NCBI RefSeq assembly: GCF_000024725.1
Contig: NC_013960.1
Location: 1,820,261-1,884,260 of the forward strand
Length of the DNA stretch: 64,000 bases
From: Nitrosococcus halophilus Nc 4
GTDB taxonomy: Bacteria > Pseudomonadota > Gammaproteobacteria > Nitrosococcales > Nitrosococcaceae
Reading direction: 5' to 3'
Shown: in pieces, positions 16,348 through 52,784 of the stretch
Numbering within the stretch: the stretch's first letter is position 1
Layout: each line of letters begins with the position of its first letter
Position numbers and translations under genes: made by a program
Notes under the pieces: generated by a model
What the model was told of the DNA's origin: nothing
Seen by the model: only the letters and a program-made list of their open reading frames with translations
Database searches by the model: none

Positions 16348-16366
16348 TATAATGATAATTGTTATT
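16348..16366. promoter_or_regulatory. Fur-box-like operator between entD and the TonB receptor
   Basis: TATAATGATAATTGTTATT matches the 19-bp Fur consensus at about 15 positions, with the first 11 consensus bases after position 1 unbroken. It is placed 42 bp before the entD start and 93 bp before the receptor start, where it could repress both divergent promoters when iron is plentiful. Confidence 0.75.
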
Positions 16367-24474: not shown

Positions 24475-26154
24475 TTAAAACCGGACACTCATACTGGCGC
24501 TGACAGTACGAGGAGCACCCGGTGTGAGTATGCCGAATTGGGCATTTGCAAAGTGGCGCTTGTCTAGGAGATTGTCCACATTCACGCGGAGGGTGGCCAG
24601 TGTGCCGCCGAGCTGCATATTATAGCGGGCACCAAGGCCAAATACGTCGAAATCAGGAGCATCATCGCCGGTATTGAAGTCGTTCAGGGGTCGCGACCCG
24701 GTGCGGGTCCAACTACCGCTGAAAACCAAACCGGGGAAGACTCGAGGCGCGTACTCTGTAACCAACGCCATTCGGTGGCCGGGTACCCCAGAAGGGCGAT
24801 TGCCCTCGATAGCGGGATCTTCCATATCCTTGAGCTCGGCATCTAACAGCATGGCGCTGCCGAACACGATCCATTCGGGGGTAATCCGCCCGGTCACTGA
24901 AAACTCTACGCCCCGGTGGATTTGGCTGCCGTCCTGGACAAACGTATTGGCGGCGTTCACGATTTCGGCTGTACGGTCAATTTGAAATAGGGCCGCCTCT
25001 GCCCTCATTTCATCCAGTTCTACCTTGGCGCCGATTTCGATTTGATTACTGGTCAGTGGTCCGAGCTGCTGATTTTGATTGGTGGTGCCCAAGGGGGCGA
25101 CGCCCCCCGCCTCGAGCCCTTCGATGTAACTCACATAGGTGGAAATGTTGGATAGGGGCTTGAACACCAGCGCAACGCTTGGTGTCAGCACGCTCTCATC
25201 AAAGCGTGCGGTCAAGGCGCCGGTGCTATCAAAGCTTTTTTCGTCGCGCCCCGTATAACGGCCGCCCAGATGAAGTTTCCAGGCCTCCCCGAAGGAGAGG
25301 ATATCATGGGCGAATACCCCCTGCTCCTTGATGCGCATGGTGGCAAAGGATGGCGGAGCTTGGGGCGAAGGATCCGGGATGGACACCGGGTTAAAGATAT
25401 TGGTGGTGCCAATTTCCTCGAAAAAGCCGTCGCCCCAGCGAGTCTTGAGGCGATGATCGGAGTACCCGAATGCCAGTTCATGGGCGATGGGGCCGGTGGT
25501 AAGTTCTCCTCTAATCATCGCTCGGGCGCTGAAGGGCTCGCGGGTCTGATCAGGGCTGAAGAACAGAAAGACGGTAGCATCCCCATTAGGCTGGAGGCTG
25601 TCGAGCAAGATTGAGTTCTGCTCCCGGTCCAAGCGCATCCAGTTTCCTTCCGCTACGATCGACCATTGATCACTGAGAAAATGCTCAAGTTTGCCGCTTA
25701 CGAGCGTAAAGGTGGTGGGGAAGGTGGCCCAGGTTTGGCCTAAGAAGGTCTCTGGATCGAACCCTGAAGGAATGTTGCCATTCACATCTGCCAGCAGGTC
25801 GGGTTGGGTGATCTGATCTCTTTCCTCATGTTCTACATCAAATTGGAATAACGTATCGGGCGTAATCCGCCAATCGGCTGCAAGACTGACGAACGGTCGT
25901 TCGCTCTCGACCTGGTCAACAAAGGATTTCTGCTCTTCCCAGGCCGCATTGACCCGAACGCCGAAGTTACCGTTATCGGTACGACGGCTGAAGTCGGCAT
26001 GGGCTCTGATGTTGCCGAACTCATTGCCTACCACATGGAGCGCATTGATAGGCTCGAAGGCTGGTCGTTTGGTGACATAGTTGACTAAACCGCCTGGCGC
26101 CCCAAAGCCCGCTTGCAAGGCCGATGGGCCTTTGAGAATTTCAACGCGCGCCTT
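24475..26154 (-). pseudogene. TonB-dependent siderophore receptor, 3' part (split by IscB element)
   Basis: This codes for 559 residues of plug and barrel, beginning at KARVEILKGPSALQAGFG and ending in a typical terminal aromatic (SVRF). The 5' part lies beyond the IscB element at 27798-28292. Joining the codon before the element (AAT) to the first codon after it (AAG) gives ...GLENKARVEILKGPSA..., with exactly the spacing usual in this family, so an uninterrupted 724-residue receptor would result. In the present arrangement the frame stays open into the element up to 26289, but that product would lack a signal peptide and the first half of the plug. It lies 60 bp from the convergent end of the ABC exporter. 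Its substrate is unknown; siderophore-type by the NYVTKRP block. Confidence 0.9.
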
Positions 26155-27797
26155 GAAGGAGTACAAGGAAGTGCGACGCCCCCCTAGCGAGAGTGCGCAG
26201 CGCAGCGGAGCATCGAGCGCGAGGGCCGCATTACTTGCTGTCGTCGCCGTATTTGGTTCAGACAGCCGAAAGACTGTAGTCATAACCATCTCCCCTCTGT
26301 ATTAGTTTGAAATTTATCCAGTTGGCCGAGATCTTCCCGGCCTTGGCTTTCACATCAAAGGTGCCGCTAGCCCGAATGCTGGCCAGTATCCCAACATGAT
26401 CGCCAGCGTACTTGCCTTGGGGTTGCGAGAGCCTGACGAGATCACCCGTTTGAAATCCCTTTACTCGCCTACACCGCCCCGCCTTGCCGCGAGGAAAGCC
26501 ATATTTGTCGGTTCTGACGACTTGCCTTGTTCCGCGCCCCGTGGCTTTGATATGTAGCGCCCGATAACCTTCAGTTATTGTCACTTGCTCAGCGCTTTCG
26601 CCAACACATGCCGCGTCTATCCAATGGTCTTTGGTATAGCCTTGGCTGATCCTGTTTTTCTTGGTGCGCCCACCAGACCAAAAAGAAGTCGGCAATCCCA
26701 CTGACTGAATAGTGCACCCGATGGCGTAGCGGGTAGCATTGACCGCCGCTGCATCTTTTAGAGGCAGCTTGGATTTGGACTGGATCTGGGTATACCCAAA
26801 CTCGGCCGCCGTTTTGCTGTTCTTTTTTTTGTTGCAGGGCGCGCGGGCCAGGGTTAAATTAGATACCCGATTACTACCCCCCCTCGATCTCGGTATAATA
26901 TGCTCAACCTCTAGCGGGATATCTTTCTTATTGCAATAAGCGCACTTCCTGTCCCACTTCTCTAGCAGATATTCGCGCACCTCATACCCCATCAACTCGC
27001 CCTGCTGATACTCAACGCCGTTAATTTCAGGGTTCTGAATTTTTTGAGTATCAAAGCGCACAGTTTCGATATGACATTCTGAAATGGGAACTCTATCTAG
27101 CAGACGATTAAACCAGCTCGAAACGTTTTCAACCCGCGAGTTTAGCGATGGCGGCAGCCAACCCTTCGGTTTTGTTCTGTTTAGAAATCGTGGCGCACGA
27201 TAGCGGGTCTTTCTGCCTCTACGACCTCGGCGCAAACTACGACGACTAGCCAGCCGCTCACGGATGGCGTACCCGCGATGGGTAAGATTGGCGGCCCATA
27301 ACACCACGCGCCCCTGTTGAGGAAAATTCCCAACTAAAGCCAGCCCGGTTATTTTGCTGCCCGGATCAACCTTAAATTCAACCGGCTGCGGGTTGGGATC
27401 AACCCTATATTTCAGGATGATCGTAAATGGCTGCATCCGATAAACGCCAGCCTTCCCGTCTCGCAACAGCCGTCTTGCCCTTGCTGGGCTGCATGGCATC
27501 AACGGTTTTCTATCAGTGTCTAATACAAAAACTCTATTCATTAGCTTTTGCTACTCTAAAAGTTAGGGTTCTCTCGCCAATGTTTGAAGGGTCGTTCAGT
27601 CTCGGCATTCGCTCCTGTGTCGCTCCGTAGTTCATTGCCTTTGACCTCAGTGCCTGGGGCTGAGAAATGCACCCCAGGGTGAGTCGCTTTCGCTTCAACT
27701 TCAAACGTAGCCCCGAAGGGCTGAGGCTGGTTGAGCCAACCAACTCATTCGGAAAGTTCAGGACGAACTTGGAGAATGAGTTAGGCGACGACTCAAC
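26155..27797 (-). mobile_element. IscB/omega-RNA insertion element, copy 1 (1,643 bp)
   Basis: The block 26155-27797 equals 51142-52784 except for four substitutions that I can see. Both boundaries are sharp, and outside them the sequences differ completely. On the - strand it holds the omega-RNA scaffold, the iscB gene and about 100 GC-rich bases. It has no transposase gene, so it must be moved in trans, by family knowledge by an IS200/IS605 Y1 transposase. No target-site duplication is seen, as expected for that group. It interrupts a TonB receptor gene. The two copies are direct repeats about 25 kb apart. Confidence 0.92.
26258..27541 (-). CDS. iscB: IscB RNA-guided nuclease, copy 1
   Basis: This 427-residue protein has the complete IscB layout. 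The PLMP domain is at residues 1-45 (DRKPLMPCSPARARRLL). RuvC-I is at FKVDPGSKITGLAL with Asp59. An Arg-rich bridge helix lies at about 92-120 (RRSLRRGRRGRK). RuvC-II is at CHIETVRFD with Glu159. The HNH domain has CxxC at 200-203, EHIIPRSRGGSN with His214, and CNKKK at 236-240. RuvC-III is at KDHWIDAAC with His306 and Asp309. The C-terminal domain, by homology target-adjacent-motif reading, runs from about 345 to 427. All expected catalytic residues are present, so it could be active. IscB proteins are Cas9's ancestors and cut DNA using an omega-RNA encoded just upstream of their gene; such a scaffold precedes this gene. It differs from copy 2 at residue 32 (Gly here, Ala there). Confidence 0.95.
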   Translation of the reverse strand: MNRVFVLDTDRKPLMPCSPARARRLLRDGKAGVYRMQPFTIILKYRVDPNPQPVEFKVDPGSKITGLALVGNFPQQGRVVLWAANLTHRGYAIRERLASRRSLRRGRRGRKTRYRAPRFLNRTKPKGWLPPSLNSRVENVSSWFNRLLDRVPISECHIETVRFDTQKIQNPEINGVEYQQGELMGYEVREYLLEKWDRKCAYCNKKDIPLEVEHIIPRSRGGSNRVSNLTLARAPCNKKKNSKTAAEFGYTQIQSKSKLPLKDAAAVNATRYAIGCTIQSVGLPTSFWSGGRTKKNRISQGYTKDHWIDAACVGESAEQVTITEGYRALHIKATGRGTRQVVRTDKYGFPRGKAGRCRRVKGFQTGDLVRLSQPQGKYAGDHVGILASIRASGTFDVKAKAGKISANWINFKLIQRGDGYDYSLSAV

Positions 27798-27813
27798 ATT
27801 CTCTAGCCCGGTG
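27542..27813 (-). ncRNA. Predicted omega-RNA of IscB copy 1 (scaffold plus about 16-nt guide)
   Basis: The 256 bases before iscB are kept in both element copies and fold into nested hairpins. On the - strand GTTGAGTC (element edge) pairs with GGCTCAAC. Inside is AACTCATTC/GAATGAGTT (27742-27750 with 27774-27782), enclosing AAGTTC/GAACTT. Further on are AGCCC/GGGCT with a tetraloop (27709-27722) and CCTGGGG/CCCCAGG (27653-27678). By analogy with known IscB systems the guide is the flanking DNA 5' of the scaffold, here caccgggctagagaat (27813 down to 27798), which is receptor coding sequence for TGLEN. The RNA ends and the guide length are not determined. Confidence 0.75.
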
Positions 27814-28292
27814 GCTTGCTGGTTTATTATCCTTAAGCCGTTGTAGCGGTAGTTGTTGAAATTATTCAAATTTAAGCCACGGATGGCCAGATTGGTAAAT
27901 GCACCTGGATTGACGGCGGAGGAGGTCACGCTGGCATCGAGTCGATCCATCGCACCGATGTCATTAAAAGATTGATTGAAAAATAACTCCCATGGCGCTA
28001 CTTTGACTGAAAATGGCGTATCCAACAGTGGTTGATCACCAAAACCTGCTAAGGCAGAATCTTTTGCCTTGTAGCCTTGGCTTGCGCCTTCTGCCTCAGT
28101 TTCGGAGGTGACGGTCACCATTGGCAATCTCATCTCTTCTGCTTGTGTCGGCTCCTCGGCACCGGTTTGCTGGGCATGGGCCTGTCCAGCAAACGCTAAC
28201 CCAAGCAGTGCATAAGGCAGCGAAAGGGAAAATAGGGTGCGTTGGAGGCGAATAAAATTCTTGGTCATTTTTTTGGGGGTTTTAGTCTTCAT
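27798..28292 (-). pseudogene. TonB-dependent siderophore receptor, 5' part (split by IscB element)
   Basis: This codes for the first 165 residues of a receptor: a signal peptide (about residues 1-40, LPYALLGLAFAGQAHAQ), a TonB-box-like region (MVTVTSETEAEG) and the first half of the plug (LLDTPFSVKVAPWELF, NLAIRGLNLNNFN, RYNGLRIINQQ). It stops in mid-plug at the codons for GLEN, where the IscB element begins. Continued reading into the element gives about 87 unrelated residues translated from the omega-RNA region before a stop near 27534. The rest of the receptor is at 24475-26154. The gene is non-functional unless the element is excised. Confidence 0.9.
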
Positions 28293-28441: not shown

Positions 28442-30124
28442 TCAATGAGAAGTACTGTGGTGGTCTACCGCAGCTTCGGTTAATTGTCCCTTAGCGCCTG
28501 CCTTGAGGACGGCGATGCCTTCCCGAAGGCTCTTCTCTACCCAGCGGGTGAAGTTAGGATGCGGTATTAAGCCTTGTCCATTCATCACATACTCCAACCC
28601 GTCCAGATATGTCCCATAGGAGCCTGAACCGTAAAGCCGATTGGAAATGACGATGGCTTGGCCACCATTATTCGCCTGTTCGATAAAGGCGCGGATCTCG
28701 CGTAGGGCTTCGGCCCGCTTGTCGGGCCAGTCCTCCCGCAGGCTCATGGCGCGGATGTCACGGAAAGGCGCCGGGAGTATGGCTTTGATAGTGGCGATGT
28801 TATGCTCGGTGATGAGGGCAAGGTCGGCCGCATTTGCCTTGTCACTTCTGCTACCGTGGGAGAGGAGAAGGATGCTTTCTTGCGAGGGATCTTGGCTCAC
28901 CTCCAGTATCCGGTCCTTGAGGATTTCCGAGATCAAGGGATCGGGCTGATAGCCGCCTGTGGTCACAAAACGGACGGAGGTGCGCACGCGCTCAGGCACT
29001 CCGCCATGGTTGTGGGCCGGTGGAGCCATGCGGAGCCCAAGAATATAGTCGCTCGCCTCGCGGAAATGATGGGACATGGCGTAGAGGCGCAAAAAGACCC
29101 CATGGCGCACCCCCGCAGCCTCTAGCTCGTTCACCGCTTGGCCAATAGCGAAAGGGCTTGCCATGCCGAAGGCGAAGGCGGTGGGATAACGCCTCACCAT
29201 GTCTGGCATGGCGGCGATGATGCCGTCATTGTAGGGCGCGGTTGAGCCATGGGGCATGATGATGAAGCCGATAGTGTCTTTGGTCACCGGGACATGCCTA
29301 TTGATCATACGCCGCAGCCAGGTGCGCACTGCCGAGTGAGGCATGACGCTTTCGGCAATATGGATATTGGCGTGGGTATAGCGCCGCTTTAGCATCGTTT
29401 CAAGCGACATATTGGGCGTAAATTTGAGGCCGACGACCGAAGGGATAATGAGGGTGCGGCCCGCCTCGGCGAACCGGTTCACGAGTGTCGCCGTCTCGGC
29501 CTCCGCAGCCTCTGCCTCTGGACCTCCTGCTGTTCTGGAATAGGTGAGCGCAACCTCGGTTTCGGCAAAGGAAACGAAGGGGCGGATATCGTCCAGTAGA
29601 CGCTCGCCGAGCGATCGCAAGGTCGCGGCGCCTCCGGTATCGCCGGCCCCCGAAAGCCATAGCACCAGCCGTTCTGCTGCCGGCGTTTTGCTCACCGAGC
29701 GGATGCGGTCGAGCAGTATCTCTCGGAGCAGATAGCTTTCTCCGAGAGCCGGCGTCCAGGTGAGCACAGCGGGGGCCATGGCAGTCTCGATTTGGCTGCG
29801 GAAAAGCCCGAGGAGATGATCGGCCTCCGAGACGAAAAGAGGAATGGCGATGACCTTACCCACGCCATGCTCATGGAGAAAGGCCCGGGCCGCTTCCATA
29901 TAGGCGGCATAGCCGTTCTCAATACCCTGATAGTCGGGTCCGATGAGCAAGAGTTTTACCGGATAGTCCGGGTCTAGGTCCGCGACGGTAGCCGCAAGCT
30001 CCTGGTTGCCGACGGCCCCCCGGTCCATGGCGACGACCAGGACGCCGATCCGCTCTGAAGCGCTGGTGAGAGGAGGAAAAATGCACAAGATAAACAAGAA
30101 TAACCACCGGAGCATCACTTTCAT
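28442..30124 (-). CDS. Exported protein with four CbiX/sirohydrochlorin-chelatase-like repeats
   Basis: This 560-residue protein has a signal peptide (residues 1-22, LRWLFLFILCIFPPLTSAS). The rest reads as four class II chelatase half-units, each starting with a hydrophobic strand and a loop where CbiX proteins have HGS. Unit 1 has VLVVAMDRG (no His). Unit 2 has VLWLSGAGD (no His). Unit 3 has FIIMPHGSTAPYNDG. Unit 4 has ILLLSHGSRSDKANA. A second His is seen in PLFVSEADHLLG (unit 1) and YAMSHHFREAS (unit 3). Known CbiX enzymes are cytoplasmic and insert cobalt or iron into sirohydrochlorin; a periplasmic four-unit version must do something else, perhaps binding or remodelling tetrapyrroles. 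It follows a His-rich small gene and a haem-type receptor gene. The ribosome site is AAGAGG. Function is unknown. Confidence 0.8.
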   Translation of the reverse strand: MKVMLRWLFLFILCIFPPLTSASERIGVLVVAMDRGAVGNQELAATVADLDPDYPVKLLLIGPDYQGIENGYAAYMEAARAFLHEHGVGKVIAIPLFVSEADHLLGLFRSQIETAMAPAVLTWTPALGESYLLREILLDRIRSVSKTPAAERLVLWLSGAGDTGGAATLRSLGERLLDDIRPFVSFAETEVALTYSRTAGGPEAEAAEAETATLVNRFAEAGRTLIIPSVVGLKFTPNMSLETMLKRRYTHANIHIAESVMPHSAVRTWLRRMINRHVPVTKDTIGFIIMPHGSTAPYNDGIIAAMPDMVRRYPTAFAFGMASPFAIGQAVNELEAAGVRHGVFLRLYAMSHHFREASDYILGLRMAPPAHNHGGVPERVRTSVRFVTTGGYQPDPLISEILKDRILEVSQDPSQESILLLSHGSRSDKANAADLALITEHNIATIKAILPAPFRDIRAMSLREDWPDKRAEALREIRAFIEQANNGGQAIVISNRLYGSGSYGTYLDGLEYVMNGQGLIPHPNFTRWVEKSLREGIAVLKAGAKGQLTEAAVDHHSTSH

Positions 30125-30198
30125 ACCTCTTTTGAAGGGACCAAATTAAGGTTTCCCTCTTGTTCAATTTCTGCTGTAAAACAATGGGGGTGATTTAA

Positions 30199-30489
30199 CT
30201 AATGCCGGCGTGACTTTACTCCAACCGACAGCAGGCTCTCATGAGAATGCCAATTTCTCCCGGTGCGGCGCTGCCAGTATTCAAGGAGGTGTAAATAGGC
30301 TTTGCGGCTTTCCGAGTCGTTTTGAACGAGGGGGTGTTCGCTCAGCAAGTGCAAGTGATGCACAATGGCCGAGGCCAGGTGGGGGCAGGAATGATGGGTA
30401 TAACGGCTCATGAGACAAGAGGCCGTTGCCTGGAGATGGGTGAGACCCCGGATTAAGGTATTGGGGGAAGATATTTTATGATTAGCCAT
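30199..30489 (-). CDS. Small His-rich hypothetical protein
   Basis: This 96-residue protein has 13 histidines, including THHSCPHLA, VHHLHLL and NWHSHE, and two cysteines. I see no signal peptide or membrane segment. It is likely a real gene: GAGGAG lies nine bases before the ATG, and it sits in line between the haem-type receptor (264 bp upstream) and the exported chelatase-like gene (74 bp downstream), all on the - strand. His-rich composition fits binding of metal or haem, but I recognise no family. The 263 bases between it and the receptor hold no gene that I can support. Confidence 0.6.
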   Translation of the reverse strand: MANHKISSPNTLIRGLTHLQATASCLMSRYTHHSCPHLASAIVHHLHLLSEHPLVQNDSESRKAYLHLLEYWQRRTGRNWHSHESLLSVGVKSRRH

Positions 30490-30752
30490 GATGCGCGCTC
30501 CTCATTTTGGGCGTTAGGATGGAATTAAAAAGGGTCTGGAAGGGCAGACTGCGCCAAAAAAGCAAGTTACGGAGAAGAAGGACCGTTTGTTTCAAGCGCC
30601 TGGAAATGATTTCCGGAGGCGCTAAACGATGGAGGGAGGTGGGTCCTACTTGTTTCATTGAATTGCGGAGTCCTTGAGTACCCTGCCAGACCAAAACTTG
30701 AAAAACTGTTTTTATCTCAGATTTGCTTATATATTCTTTTGATGATGGAGGC

Positions 30753-32783
30753 TTAAAATTGGTAGGTGAGTGCCACTTTGAAATTACGCCCAGCCTCCTC
30801 GATGACTGAAAGATGACGTCTGTAAGCTTTATCGGTCAGGTTGTCGATAGCGAAATCCACCCGTAAACCCTTGAGGCCAGCAGAAGGAGGCAACCAGCTA
30901 GCGTACAGGTCATACACGCTATAGCCAGGGGTTTCCAGCACTCCTGGAGGAACTCGATCCTGCCGAGCGACAAAACGGCCCCGCCCGCCGAGGACAAATC
31001 CTAACCGAGAGAAGCGCCAGCCCAGATCGACCACTCCCTTGTCAGGTTGCACATTGGTGAGCGGCAAGCCGGTATTGTCGTCTTCACCGCGAGTGCGGCC
31101 AAAGCTGGCCCGAGCGAAAAAGCGGCTAGTGTCATAATGGATAGCCGCTTCGAAACCGTGAAGACGCGCCTGATTGAGATTGGCGTTTTGAGTAGTGCCG
31201 GCGAGAATATCGACTCTCAGATCGATGAAATCCTCGGCTTTAGTATCGAAGTAGGTGAATTCCAGATTTAGCCGATCCGCTGCCGCCAGTACTCCCTCCC
31301 AAGCGCTCCGGAAACCGGTTTCCCAGGTGTAAACTGTTTCCGGTTTGAGGGTTGGATTGGGGATGAAGAAGTTATCGGGGAAGCGGCCTGGAACCCCCCG
31401 AAAGTGGAGTCCTTCGGTGAGGCGCTCGGGCAGCGTGGGGGCGCGAAACGCCTTGCCGTAACTGCCCCATAGTTTGAGCCAGGAGGTCAGATGGAATATC
31501 CCGCCAATACGGGGGGAGAGGGCATCGTCGGTGGTGCTCTGGCCTTGCCCCGTCTCTAGCTCCAAAGTGTAGCGGTCATAGCGTAGCGCCGGAATGAGGC
31601 TTAGGTATTGACCGAGGGCGATCTCATCTTGGAGGTAAAATCCCCAGACATCGCTTTCCGCCTTGGGAAAGGAGGGCCGGGGCTCGCCGTTTTCCCGGCC
31701 TTCCTCTTCATCCTTGAAGTAATCCACCCCAAAAGTGAGTGTTTGTCCCAAAAAAGCCATGGGACCGGCAAGATCCATACTATTTTGGAGCTTAAATCCG
31801 GTGGTGAAAAACTCGCTGGTGGTTTGTCTACCGCTTTCCAGACGCCTTCGGCTATCGCGCAGCTCGGTACGGTAGGCATTGAGCTTGGGTTTGAGCCAAG
31901 GATGGGCTGGATCGTCGTAGCTGTACTGCAGGGTGTAGGTGCGGCGTTCGATATCGGTGGTGGCGTTTTCGTTGGTGCCACTCGACACTGTTTGGGGATT
32001 GGCGGGAAAAACCCCTTCGGTATTGAAGTAATCACCTCCAATGCGCAACTGATGGGCTCCAGGAAGATAGTTCAAGCGGACGAGGCCGGAAAGGTTCTCC
32101 GCAGCCGAGCTATCTAGCTCCTGGCCACTGCCCAAAGTGAGATCGCCAGAGTCCCGGTAGGCAAAATTACCCAGGAAATCCCAGTCGGCGGCACGCCCAA
32201 ATAAGGTAGCACTGGTTGACCCCTCGTCGTTGACACTTTGGTAGCCGCCCTTAAGCCGCGCGCCAAAGCGCTCGCCGGGGGCGAGGAAGTCGCTCGCCTC
32301 TCGGGTGGTCATGGCCACCACGCCGCCAAGGGCGCCACTGCCATAAAGAGCCGAGGCCGATCCGCGCAGGACTTCAATCTGTTTAAGTAAATCCGGTTCG
32401 ATAAAAAAACGGCCTAGATGACCGACACTGAAATTCTGCCGGGCGCCGTCGATAGTGGTCAGGATGCGTTCGCTGCTGAGACCGCGAATGGTAATGGTTT
32501 CGCCGATAGGTCGCGGTCCGGAGGCAAAATCGATGTTCGGCAAGACTTGCAAGAGATCGTCCATACTCTGGGCCTGCCGGCGCATGATCTGCTCGCTATC
32601 CAAAACACTTACCGAAGCAGGCAATTCAGCCAAGGGGCGTTCGGTCTGGGTTGCAATAACAGTCACCGGATCGAGAACATGGTTTTCTACATCCAGAGAG
32701 GTATCCGCGAGTGCTTTGGCGCCTATTCCACTGCATAGAAGAGGGATCATCGCCATCTCCGCACATCTTATTTCTTTGTTCAT
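30753..32783 (-). CDS. TonB-dependent haem/haemoglobin-type receptor
   Basis: This 676-residue receptor has an N-terminal export signal ending near AKALADTS, a TonB box region (DPVTVIATQTERP), a plug (about 55-165, SVLDSEQIMRRQAQSMDDLL, then GSASALYGSGALGGVVAM, the form typical of haem/lactoferrin-type receptors) and a barrel ending in ALTYQF. The haem-receptor markers FRAP (FRAPTLPERL) and an NPNL-like NPTL (IPNPTLKPE) are both seen in the extracellular-loop region between about residues 455 and 495. A strong Fur box lies about 155 bp upstream. It heads a likely operon with the His-rich small gene and the exported chelatase-like gene. Haem as substrate is a family-based inference. Confidence 0.87.
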   Translation of the reverse strand: MNKEIRCAEMAMIPLLCSGIGAKALADTSLDVENHVLDPVTVIATQTERPLAELPASVSVLDSEQIMRRQAQSMDDLLQVLPNIDFASGPRPIGETITIRGLSSERILTTIDGARQNFSVGHLGRFFIEPDLLKQIEVLRGSASALYGSGALGGVVAMTTREASDFLAPGERFGARLKGGYQSVNDEGSTSATLFGRAADWDFLGNFAYRDSGDLTLGSGQELDSSAAENLSGLVRLNYLPGAHQLRIGGDYFNTEGVFPANPQTVSSGTNENATTDIERRTYTLQYSYDDPAHPWLKPKLNAYRTELRDSRRRLESGRQTTSEFFTTGFKLQNSMDLAGPMAFLGQTLTFGVDYFKDEEEGRENGEPRPSFPKAESDVWGFYLQDEIALGQYLSLIPALRYDRYTLELETGQGQSTTDDALSPRIGGIFHLTSWLKLWGSYGKAFRAPTLPERLTEGLHFRGVPGRFPDNFFIPNPTLKPETVYTWETGFRSAWEGVLAAADRLNLEFTYFDTKAEDFIDLRVDILAGTTQNANLNQARLHGFEAAIHYDTSRFFARASFGRTRGEDDNTGLPLTNVQPDKGVVDLGWRFSRLGFVLGGRGRFVARQDRVPPGVLETPGYSVYDLYASWLPPSAGLKGLRVDFAIDNLTDKAYRRHLSVIEEAGRNFKVALTYQF

Positions 32784-32938
32784 CTGACGCTGTTGCCCCT
32801 AGCATCAAATGCTCTGTAATCCTAGCCATCAGAGCAAAATGAGGTGAACCTTGTCTCCATTTTGGTTATTGCAAGCCTAGTCTTTGGCGCTAGTTTTAGG
32901 CCGCAAGCGGGAGAGGGTAAGGTCAATTAAAATATAAT

Positions 32939-32957
32939 AATAATGATAATCATTAGT
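32939..32957. promoter_or_regulatory. Fur-box operator upstream of the haem-type receptor
   Basis: AATAATGATAATCATTAGT keeps 16 of the 19 Fur consensus bases, including the unbroken core ATAATGATAATCATTA. It is the best Fur-like site in the window and faces the haem-type receptor gene. Confidence 0.8.
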
Positions 32958-32987
32958 GTTTAGTAAATCAATGCCAGTGTGTGAAGG

Positions 32988-50909: not shown

Positions 50910-51266
50910 GTGGATAGGCACCAAGAGTACAAATTTATTAAAGAGTTTCTGCGGCTTTCACACAAAAAGCGAATTTATTTTGCAATACGAATCTTGGCGC
51001 AATTGGATGAAACCAATTTTTGGTTTCTGTATCGTCAAGAGCTGCGATCGGATCTTTTACTCAGATTCATGGCGCGGGAAATCCAAATGAACAAGAGAGG
51101 TTTGGGTAGGAAAGGCTCGGATAGGCCAAAGGTATTACGTAGAAGGAGTACAAGGAAGTGCGACGCCCCCCTAGCGAGAGTGCGCAGCGCAGCGGAGCAT
51201 CGAGCGCGAGGGCCGCATTACTTGCTGTCGTCGCCGTATTTGGTTCAGACAGCCGAAAGACTGTAG
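50910..51266 (+). CDS. Hypothetical small protein, 3' end overwritten by IscB element
   Basis: This frame starts with GTG. The first 77 residues (helical, charged, e.g. FIKEFLRLSHKKRIYF and FLYRQELRSDLLLRF) come from host DNA; the remaining 41 are translated from the antisense side of the IscB element end. If it is a real gene, its 3' part was displaced by the insertion. No ribosome site is visible and I recognise no family. Confidence 0.3.
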   Translation: MDRHQEYKFIKEFLRLSHKKRIYFAIRILAQLDETNFWFLYRQELRSDLLLRFMAREIQMNKRGLGRKGSDRPKVLRRRSTRKCDAPLARVRSAAEHRARGPHYLLSSPYLVQTAERL

Positions 51267-52784
51267 TCATAACCATCTCCCCTCTGTATTAGTTTGAAAT
51301 TTATCCAGTTGGCCGAGATCTTCCCGGCCTTGGCTTTCACATCAAAGGTGCCGCTAGCCCGAATGCTGGCCAGTATCCCAACATGATCGCCAGCGTACTT
51401 GCCTTGGGGTTGCGAGAGCCTGACGAGATCACCCGTTTGAAATCCCTTTACTCGCCTACACCGCCCCGCCTTGCCGCGAGGAAAGCCATATTTGTCGGTT
51501 CTGACGACTTGCCTTGTTCCGCGCCCCGTGGCTTTGATATGTAGCGCCCGATAACCTTCAGTTATTGTCACTTGCTCAGCGCTTTCGCCAACACATGCCG
51601 CGTCTATCCAATGGTCTTTGGTATAGCCTTGGCTGATCCTGTTTTTCTTGGTGCGCCCACCAGACCAAAAAGAAGTCGGCAATCCCACTGACTGAATAGT
51701 GCACCCGATGGCGTAGCGGGTAGCATTGACCGCCGCTGCATCTTTTAGAGGCAGCTTGGATTTGGACTGGATCTGGGTATACCCAAACTCGGCCGCCGTT
51801 TTGCTGTTCTTTTTTTTGTTGCAGGGCGCGCGGGCCAGGGTTAAATTAGATACCCGATTACTACCCCCCCTCGATCTCGGTATAATATGCTCAACCTCTA
51901 GCGGGATATCTTTCTTATTGCAATAAGCGCACTTCCTGTCCCACTTCTCTAGCAGATATTCGCGCACCTCATACCCCATCAACTCGCCCTGCTGATACTC
52001 AACGCCGTTAATTTCAGGGTTCTGAATTTTTTGAGTATCAAAGCGCACAGTTTCGATATGACATTCTGAAATGGGAACTCTATCTAGCAGACGATTAAAC
52101 CAGCTCGAAACGTTTTCAACCCGCGAGTTTAGCGATGGCGGCAGCCAACCCTTCGGTTTTGTTCTGTTTAGAAATCGTGGCGCACGATAGCGGGTCTTTC
52201 TGCCTCTACGACCTCGGCGCAAACTACGACGACTAGCCAGCCGCTCACGGATGGCGTACCCGCGATGGGTAAGATTGGCGGCCCATAACACCACGCGCCC
52301 CTGTTGAGGAAAATTCCCAACTAAAGCCAGCCCGGTTATTTTGCTGCCCGGATCAACCTTAAATTCAACCGGCTGCGGGTTGGGATCAACCCTATATTTC
52401 AGGATGATCGTAAATGGCTGCATCCGATAAACCGCGGCCTTCCCGTCTCGCAACAGCCGTCTTGCCCTTGCTGGGCTGCATGGCATCAACGGTTTTCTAT
52501 CAGTGTCTAATACAAAAACTCTATTCATTAGCTTTCGCTACTCTAAAAGTTAGGGTTCTCTCGCCAATGTTTGAAGGGTCGTTCAGTCTCGGCATTCGCT
52601 CCTGTGTCGCTCCGTAGTTCATTGCCTTTGACCTCAGTGCCTGGGGCTGAGAAATGCACCCCAGGGTGAGTCGCTTTCGCTTCAACTTCAAACGTAGCCC
52701 CGAAGGGCTGAGGCTGGTTGAGCCAACCAACTCATTCGGAAAGTTCAGGACGAACTTGGAGAATGAGTTAGGCGACGACTCAAC
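51142..52784 (-). mobile_element. IscB/omega-RNA insertion element, copy 2 (1,643 bp)
   Basis: Same length and orientation as copy 1 (26155-27797), differing at about four bases: three clustered near 52435 (in the codons for residues 31-32) and one near 52535. Its omega-RNA end lies 3 bp after the stop of the DUF3422 gene, which it leaves intact. Flanks share no sequence with those of copy 1. No transposase gene is present. Confidence 0.92.
51245..52528 (-). CDS. iscB: IscB RNA-guided nuclease, copy 2
   Basis: This 427-residue protein is identical to copy 1 apart from residue 32 (Ala instead of Gly), at the end of the PLMP domain. All RuvC residues (Asp59, Glu159, His306, Asp309) and HNH residues (Cys200, Cys203, His214) are kept, so both copies look intact. 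Because scaffold and protein are the same, the two copies should share RNAs: each IscB could use either guide. The lack of decay suggests recent movement or continued selection. Confidence 0.95.
   Translation of the reverse strand: MNRVFVLDTDRKPLMPCSPARARRLLRDGKAAVYRMQPFTIILKYRVDPNPQPVEFKVDPGSKITGLALVGNFPQQGRVVLWAANLTHRGYAIRERLASRRSLRRGRRGRKTRYRAPRFLNRTKPKGWLPPSLNSRVENVSSWFNRLLDRVPISECHIETVRFDTQKIQNPEINGVEYQQGELMGYEVREYLLEKWDRKCAYCNKKDIPLEVEHIIPRSRGGSNRVSNLTLARAPCNKKKNSKTAAEFGYTQIQSKSKLPLKDAAAVNATRYAIGCTIQSVGLPTSFWSGGRTKKNRISQGYTKDHWIDAACVGESAEQVTITEGYRALHIKATGRGTRQVVRTDKYGFPRGKAGRCRRVKGFQTGDLVRLSQPQGKYAGDHVGILASIRASGTFDVKAKAGKISANWINFKLIQRGDGYDYSLSAV

Follow-up and report, generated by a model that had tools for sequence, protein, structure and literature searches.

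Three genes in line on the minus strand (28442-32957) of the analysed stretch of Nitrosococcus halophilus Nc 4 DNA (64,000 nucleotides; the window) encode a TonB receptor, a protein of 96 aa and an exported protein of 560 aa with a predicted class II chelatase fold; all three reading frames are open. We tentatively favor the reading, to which we give slightly less than an even chance, that they form an iron-repressed haem-iron acquisition unit, in which a class II chelatase fold working in reverse would take iron from haem in the periplasm. A periplasmic system for haem or another metallo-tetrapyrrole was already the subject of the original prediction. What stands of it is an exported chelatase-fold protein that is preceded by a Fur box and tied to a haem receptor; a conserved His-rich binder, and the claim that nothing of the kind had been described, taken in a broad sense, do not stand.

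Gene Order, Fur Box and Receptor

The host, a salt-loving ammonia oxidizer, has a genome of 4,145,260 bases in two contigs. The locus contains the following features:

32943..32971, minus strand: sigma-70-like promoter candidate, TTGATT-17-TATCAT, a consensus match only; overlaps the Fur box
32939..32957, no strand assigned: Fur-box-like operator, AATAATGATAATCATTAGT, 16/19 to the E. coli consensus GATAATGATAATCATTATC
30753..32783, minus strand: TonB-dependent haem/haemoglobin-type receptor, 676 aa, assigned by TIGR01785/TIGR01786 scores and the FRAP...GLHF...NPTLKPE motif
30199..30489, minus strand: small helical protein, 96 aa, with 13 His, probably cytoplasmic, of no known family
28442..30124, minus strand: exported double class II chelatase-like protein, 560 aa, assigned by sequence and predicted structure

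The Fur box is the top-ranking 19-mer of the window and its sole match with at most three mismatches (0.01 expected by shuffling), the runners-up reaching 15/19 at 32933, 20276 and 16348. The collinear one-strand trio behind the window's best Fur box, as first proposed, is indeed there. Sigma-70-like sites in the window are not more numerous than in shuffled sequences, and in two congeners the Fur-like site upstream of the receptor matches at just 14/19. The position of the box at the promoter suggests that the trio belongs to the Fur regulon, with repression by iron as the predicted outcome.

Haem receptors are marked by a His located between a FRAP box and an NPxL box, and the window receptor possesses both boxes and the intervening His (FRAPTLPERLTEGLHFRGVPGRFPDNFFIPNPTLKPE). 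It scores 525.2 bits against TIGR01785 (TonB-hemin; curated cut-off 316.85) and 410.7 bits against TIGR01786 (cut-off 323.75). Judged by these scores and boxes, it is a bona fide haem-family TonB receptor, as had been claimed.

Other parts of the region are also devoted to iron. A large siderophore island (17-24414) encodes NRPS, a siderophore receptor, a PepSY-like protein, ExbB/ExbD/TonB and an ABC exporter; Fur-like sites within it, at 16348 and 20276, match at 15/19. A gene of the same iron region that precedes the window by about 6 kb (L117:13981-15951) encodes a fusion of cytochrome c and an FTR1 iron permease, and a Fur-like site at L117:16130 matches at 14/19. Another TonB receptor gene looks interrupted, its two parts (24475-26289 and 27534-28292) being separated by the first of two 1.64-kb copies (26155-27797 and 51142-52784), which are 99.8% identical and carry an RRXRR/HNH protein (IscB-like).

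Architecture, Export and Fold of the 560-aa Protein

The protein is divided as follows:

30059..30124, minus strand: signal peptide, about residues 1-22, Sec-type, MKVMLRWLFLFILCIFPPLTSA
29288..30055, minus strand: N-terminal half, units 1-2, residues 24-279; chelatase fold, degenerate site
28481..29284, minus strand: C-terminal half, units 3-4, residues 281-548; chelatase fold, His-Gly motifs retained

A profile-profile comparison aligns the two halves (residues 24-280 and 281-548) over their full length (E 1.1e-24). By this alignment, the protein is an internal duplication, each half corresponding to one two-domain chelatase; the earlier description as a signal peptide with four CbiX-like units was right, and a duplicated two-domain chelatase is the better wording. 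At the motif position, unit 1 carries MDR, unit 2 GAG, and units 3 and 4 HGS. These assignments had been made correctly for the window protein, but HGS itself is not conserved in the family: one Nitrosococcus relative has HGA and HGG in its place, and just His-Gly is kept.

A hydrophobic N-terminal segment is found in 50/51 four-unit homologues (three of them lipobox-like), and in the remaining one, L074, the N-terminus looks lipobox-like on inspection. Exported two-unit relatives exist as well (set A5) and correspond to the C-terminal half. In a tree of this half, the window protein belongs to a group with good support, the 15 four-unit members of which come from Gammaproteobacteria, Nitrospirota and Nitrospinota.

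An AlphaFold2 model of the whole protein, built with 51 homologues, reaches pLDDT 92.8 and pTM 0.89; the C-terminal half folded alone reaches pLDDT 92.9. The top matches of the whole model are class II chelatases: SirB (Z 18.3), coproporphyrin ferrochelatase, human ferrochelatase, the periplasmic CbiK-P and FetB. The C-terminal half aligns with SirB over 231/254 residues (Z 19.0), and also matches the coproporphyrin ferrochelatase LmCpfC (Z 16.2) and protohaem-bound human ferrochelatase (Z 15.3). The modeled two-domain fold places the protein in the class II chelatase superfamily (SirB, CfbA/CbiX, CbiK, HemH); structure prediction, on which the chelatase claim hinged, thus returned that fold with confidence.

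The sequence scores 16.4 bits against Pfam CbiX (PF01903; cut-off 22) and 29.7 and 27 bits against NCBIfam CfbA (cut-off 120). It gives no match to CbiK (PF06180) up to E 1, and phmmer against PDB sequences yields chance matches only. CobN-Mg_chel (PF02514) matches neither the protein nor the host genome. A search of the host genome with PF01903 also finds no match, so that family-based surveys would overlook the protein.

CbiX and CfbA are the best of these weak family matches, and the protein could be taken for a conventional cobalt/iron chelatase that acts on sirohydrochlorin in B12 or sirohaem synthesis and sits beside the receptor by accident. We consider this highly improbable, given its export, scores far below the curated cut-offs, linkage to receptors and a metal triad that is not conserved. 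SirB, CfbA and CbiX share the fold of the window protein (SirB Z 18-19), but they are cytoplasmic, keep the His/Glu/His site and act as a single module or homodimer, whereas the window protein is exported and double.

The host genome encodes a second exported CbiX-like protein (221 aa, P0006; L029:7273-7938), the gene of which adjoins a membrane protein gene. A paralogue of the latter (L117:4082-5934) is divergent from a HemS gene, and the interval separating these two contains a 16/19 Fur box.

Putative Active-Site Residues

In CfbA, His9, Glu42 and His75 (His10, Glu43 and His76 of SirB) are the three metal ligands (PMC11301274). HMM alignments with CfbA place His292 of the window protein on His9, Met321 on Glu42 and residue 353 on His75. 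Conservation was counted in 51 four-unit homologues (A4) and 31 two-unit homologues (A5):

29249..29251, minus strand: His292 codon; aligns with CfbA His9 / SirB His10; 51/51 in A4
29162..29164, minus strand: Met321 codon; corresponds to Glu42, a metal ligand, in CfbA; Met in 51/51 of A4 and 30/31 of A5
28856..28858, minus strand: His423 codon, first-strand His of unit 4; 51/51 in A4, 30/31 in A5

The His/Glu/His site of SirB and CfbA is not retained as such: His292 is kept, Glu is replaced with Met throughout A4, and the second His is mostly Ser, so that two of the three class II chelatase metal ligands are replaced in most four-unit members. The 560-aa protein is not an ordinary CbiX, because Met321 takes the place of the metal-ligand Glu and the second ligand His is mostly Ser. 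At position 353, 37/51 four-unit homologues have Ser and 7/51 have His, the window protein among the latter. We considered His353 as a second catalytic His and rejected it: it is kept in three Nitrosococcus proteins, yet in just those 7/51 overall.

Each of the three corresponding residues (His, Met and second-unit His) is retained in 30/31 proteins of the two-unit set. Unit symmetry places His423 at Arg134 of SirB, or at the second His9 of CfbA. Engineered SirB R134H shows raised nickel-chelatase activity, and its new His was proposed as a base catalyst (PMC11301274). The classical metal site thus appears rebuilt, with Glu changed to Met, the second His mostly lost and a His contributed by the facing unit; the arrangement of His292, Met321 and His423 around one cleft is suggested by homology. 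Glu464-Asp465-Trp466 is invariant as well, and invariant positions of the N-terminal half are DRG...N in unit 1, G in unit 2, M239 and W269.

Recurrence in Other Genomes

A scan of one-genome-per-species contigs with the 560-aa protein alone found no relatives, whereas a profile scan of the same contigs gave 132, of which 80 were kept; close-relative searches therefore miss this chelatase-like family. Its carriers include many ammonia oxidizers as well as members of Nitrospirota, Nitrospinota, Rhodothermota and other groups. Among the ammonia oxidizers found (Nitrosococcus, Nitrosomonas, Nitrosospira, Nitrosovibrio), the four-unit form occurs frequently, an observation from a motif-biased scan that gives no rate.

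Neighbors were counted from our own ORF calls and BLAST clustering for the kept relatives together with the other loci, with duplicates removed, which left 61 judgeable loci. The whole trio is kept in two congeners. A same-strand TonB receptor lies within 3 kb at 34/61 loci (26/40 for four-unit forms) and within 700 bp at 24/61; the recurring linkage on which the original prediction depended does exist, in many unrelated bacteria. Several carrier genomes (1.8-8.3 Mb) have only 3-6 TonB receptors each, and we estimate chance adjacency to be of the order of 1% per genome (receptors x ~6 kb / genome size).

Pooled partner receptors match TIGR01785 at E<=1e-70 in 22/34 cases. HmuY-domain lipoproteins are encoded in the same cluster at 8/9 tested loci, the ninth, L053, having a cupredoxin-like protein instead. 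Other recurring neighbors are FTR1 permease, multicopper oxidase, Fur, PepSY and ExbB/ExbD/TonB. CobN/HmuS is detectable in 0/10 searched genomes of the HmuY-tested set; HemS was not detected in 9/10 of them, and the remaining one has a weak HemS. Across all 24 carrier genomes tested, 21/24 are without CobN and 21/24 without HemS, soft absences as the genomes are mostly drafts.

Part of the survey weakens the iron-removal reading: 27 loci with complete flanks, notably from Planctomycetota, have no receptor nearby, some partners are siderophore-like (the L019 receptor resembles siderophore receptors), and one receptor in 34 matches the B12 family. These receptors, together with the multicopper oxidases and SCO-like proteins near some copies, could mean that the fold binds a ligand other than haem (a siderophore, corrinoid or copper chelate) or strips the metal from it. 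This seems improbable to us, since haem-family receptors dominate (22/34), HmuY is linked, and no cobalamin riboswitch was found in the window or in ten related loci. A cobalamin function had been considered for the 560-aa protein in its own right, and the same riboswitch search counts against it.

Some relatives deviate from the common pattern. The chelatase-like genes at L069:334-2043 (Nitrosomonas sp. Nm34) and L053:1089-2836 (a Chromatiales MAG) are broken up over several frames, which decay or sequencing errors might explain. One genome (G403; L023, L024, L025) has five or more exported two-unit copies; two neighboring pairs account for four, and no TonB receptor lies near these copies. 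At the L030 locus (L030:1375-7173), a two-unit CbiX-like lipoprotein that keeps the classical His/Glu/His is accompanied by a haem-type TonB receptor and a membrane protein of FMN_bind/Fer4_5 type (NosR/RnfG-like); the locus is possibly a version with its own reductant.

The Small Companion Protein

The 96-aa protein has no match above cut-off in the family libraries and no evident signal peptide. Homologues occur at about ten other loci of the chelatase-like family, and by this gene neighborhood it is a recurring companion of the chelatase-like gene. The 13 His in 96 residues pointed out in the original prediction are real, but a conserved metal or haem binder does not follow from them: two congeners have just 7-8 His and more distant relatives 3-9, which makes the His-richness uninformative, and the conserved His-richness of a metallochaperone is absent. 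What is conserved is a short helical Y...LA...L..HP...W pattern.

A second family of small Cys/His-bearing proteins is encoded between chelatase and receptor at L043:8733-8963, L042:2386-2607 and L030:815-1051. The L043 protein matches DUF6686 over cut-off, the L042 protein is its BLAST relative, and the L030 protein just looks similar.

Proposed Mechanism

We hypothesize that haem would enter the periplasm via the TonB receptor and bind, as a tetrapyrrole, in the cleft of the C-terminal module, with the His292/Met321 side of unit 3 facing His423 of unit 4. By reverse chelation, the ring would be distorted, the pyrrole nitrogens helped to protonate and the iron released. The freed iron might then pass to inner-membrane uptake, e.g., by a multicopper oxidase and an FTR1-type permease. 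Having lost the catalytic His, the N-terminal module is probably structural or a docking/loading site. We infer haem as the substrate, the cleft chemistry, the removal of iron, the fate of iron and porphyrin, and the role of the small protein; for substrate and direction, the grounds are the receptor family, the HmuY linkage, the iron context, the absence of HmuS and HemS in most carriers, and the analogy with HmuS and IhtB/FetB.

To release iron from ferric haem, electrons must be supplied, and the gene cluster encodes no source for them, which counts against iron removal. The replaced ligands (Glu to Met; second His to Ser in 37/51) weaken it further, as they fit a binder as well as an enzyme. 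The main rival, and almost as good an explanation, is a non-catalytic periplasmic haem carrier or buffer, the fold of which would bind haem by His/Met ligation and deliver it unchanged, by way of an inner-membrane permease, to HemS; taken by itself, we hold this to be rather unlikely. Such a carrier would account for the loss of the Glu and the second His along with retention of one His and an invariant Met, and the chelatase fold resembles periplasmic binding proteins too (Foldseek; a remark in PMC12583661). The host genome also encodes a HemS-type protein, so the host can probably handle haem in the cytoplasm, which likewise weakens the iron-removal reading. However, HemS goes unseen in most genomes with the protein (the 21/24 above), the host's only strong FecCD permease sits far away with BtuF-like genes, and the invariant Glu464-Asp465-Trp466 and second invariant His423 suggest more than passive binding.

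Relation to Known Systems

A close parallel to the haem-iron removal proposed here is IhtB/FetB of Porphyromonas gingivalis, a CbiK-like haem-binding lipoprotein with a partner TonB receptor, IhtA; the lipoprotein was proposed to strip haem iron outside the cytoplasm (PMC10913741). Both proteins are exported class II chelatase folds beside a TonB receptor (PDB 9b86, Z 15.8), and the window protein possesses both the export signal and the receptor linkage of that group; it is not a member of Pfam CbiK and matches the FetB profile weakly (E 0.0099). IhtB/FetB is a single CbiK-like module, a lipoprotein, within an Iht system that has ABC components, whereas the 560-aa protein is a double CbiX-like module, its partner receptor is of the haem family, and its gene has no ABC genes as neighbors. 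In addition, IhtB production was reported not to be regulated by PgFur (PMC10913741), in contrast to the Fur box before the window trio.

As proposed for FetB, the window protein might instead be a periplasmic metal-exchange enzyme that inserts or swaps Mn, Co, Zn or Fe in imported porphyrin. FetB is a structural neighbor (Z 15.8 whole; Z 15.0 C-terminal half) as well as the weak profile match, and PMC13402209 reports FetB-dependent Mn-PPIX for P. gingivalis. We nevertheless give this little credence, since the Fur box, FTR1 and HmuY indicate a setting of iron starvation and hence of iron gain, and the canonical metal site is lost.

CbiK-P of Desulfovibrio vulgaris, a periplasmic cobalt chelatase according to the titles of PDB entries 2xvx and 2xvz, is likewise an exported class II chelatase and matches the C-terminal half with Z 16.6; it is a single module, and the window protein is without a CbiK Pfam match.

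HmuS is a membrane-bound haem de-chelatase of Bacteroidota that yields protoporphyrin IX and Fe(II), with Met-79 and His-254 as family-defining residues (PMC12583661). It is encoded in hmu haem-uptake operons, and relatives of the window protein sit with HmuY and haem receptors; we propose that they may do an analogous job. HmuS itself, however, is an unrelated large class I CobN-like protein, and neither the window protein nor the host genome has a CobN match.

Novelty and Implications

Class II chelatases that are exported are already known, and so is the notion that haem could be stripped of its iron outside the cytoplasm. In a search of titles and abstracts on CbiX with haem uptake, none concerned this chelatase-like family. 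What seems to be new within the literature searched is the CbiX-like family, its double form, the invariant His/Met/His and the recurring pairing with haem receptors and HmuY. With less confidence than the haem-iron reading itself, we put forward as a possibility that a widespread exported CbiX-like family replaces HmuS in haem-iron acquisition: in the periplasm, a class II chelatase would run backwards, using a rebuilt His/Met...His site, and the twin module fused ahead of it would be catalytically dead.

For environmental bacteria that have no HmuS, HemS or haem oxygenase, the way in which iron is extracted from imported haem is largely an open matter, and an exported chelatase-fold family tied to haem receptors and HmuY is a concrete candidate for the removal step. 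The invariant His/Met/His offers a directly testable set of residues. Many nitrifiers carry the family, and their haem-rich biochemistry makes iron supply critical. If the proposal is true, reverse chelation would extend from class I (HmuS) to class II folds.
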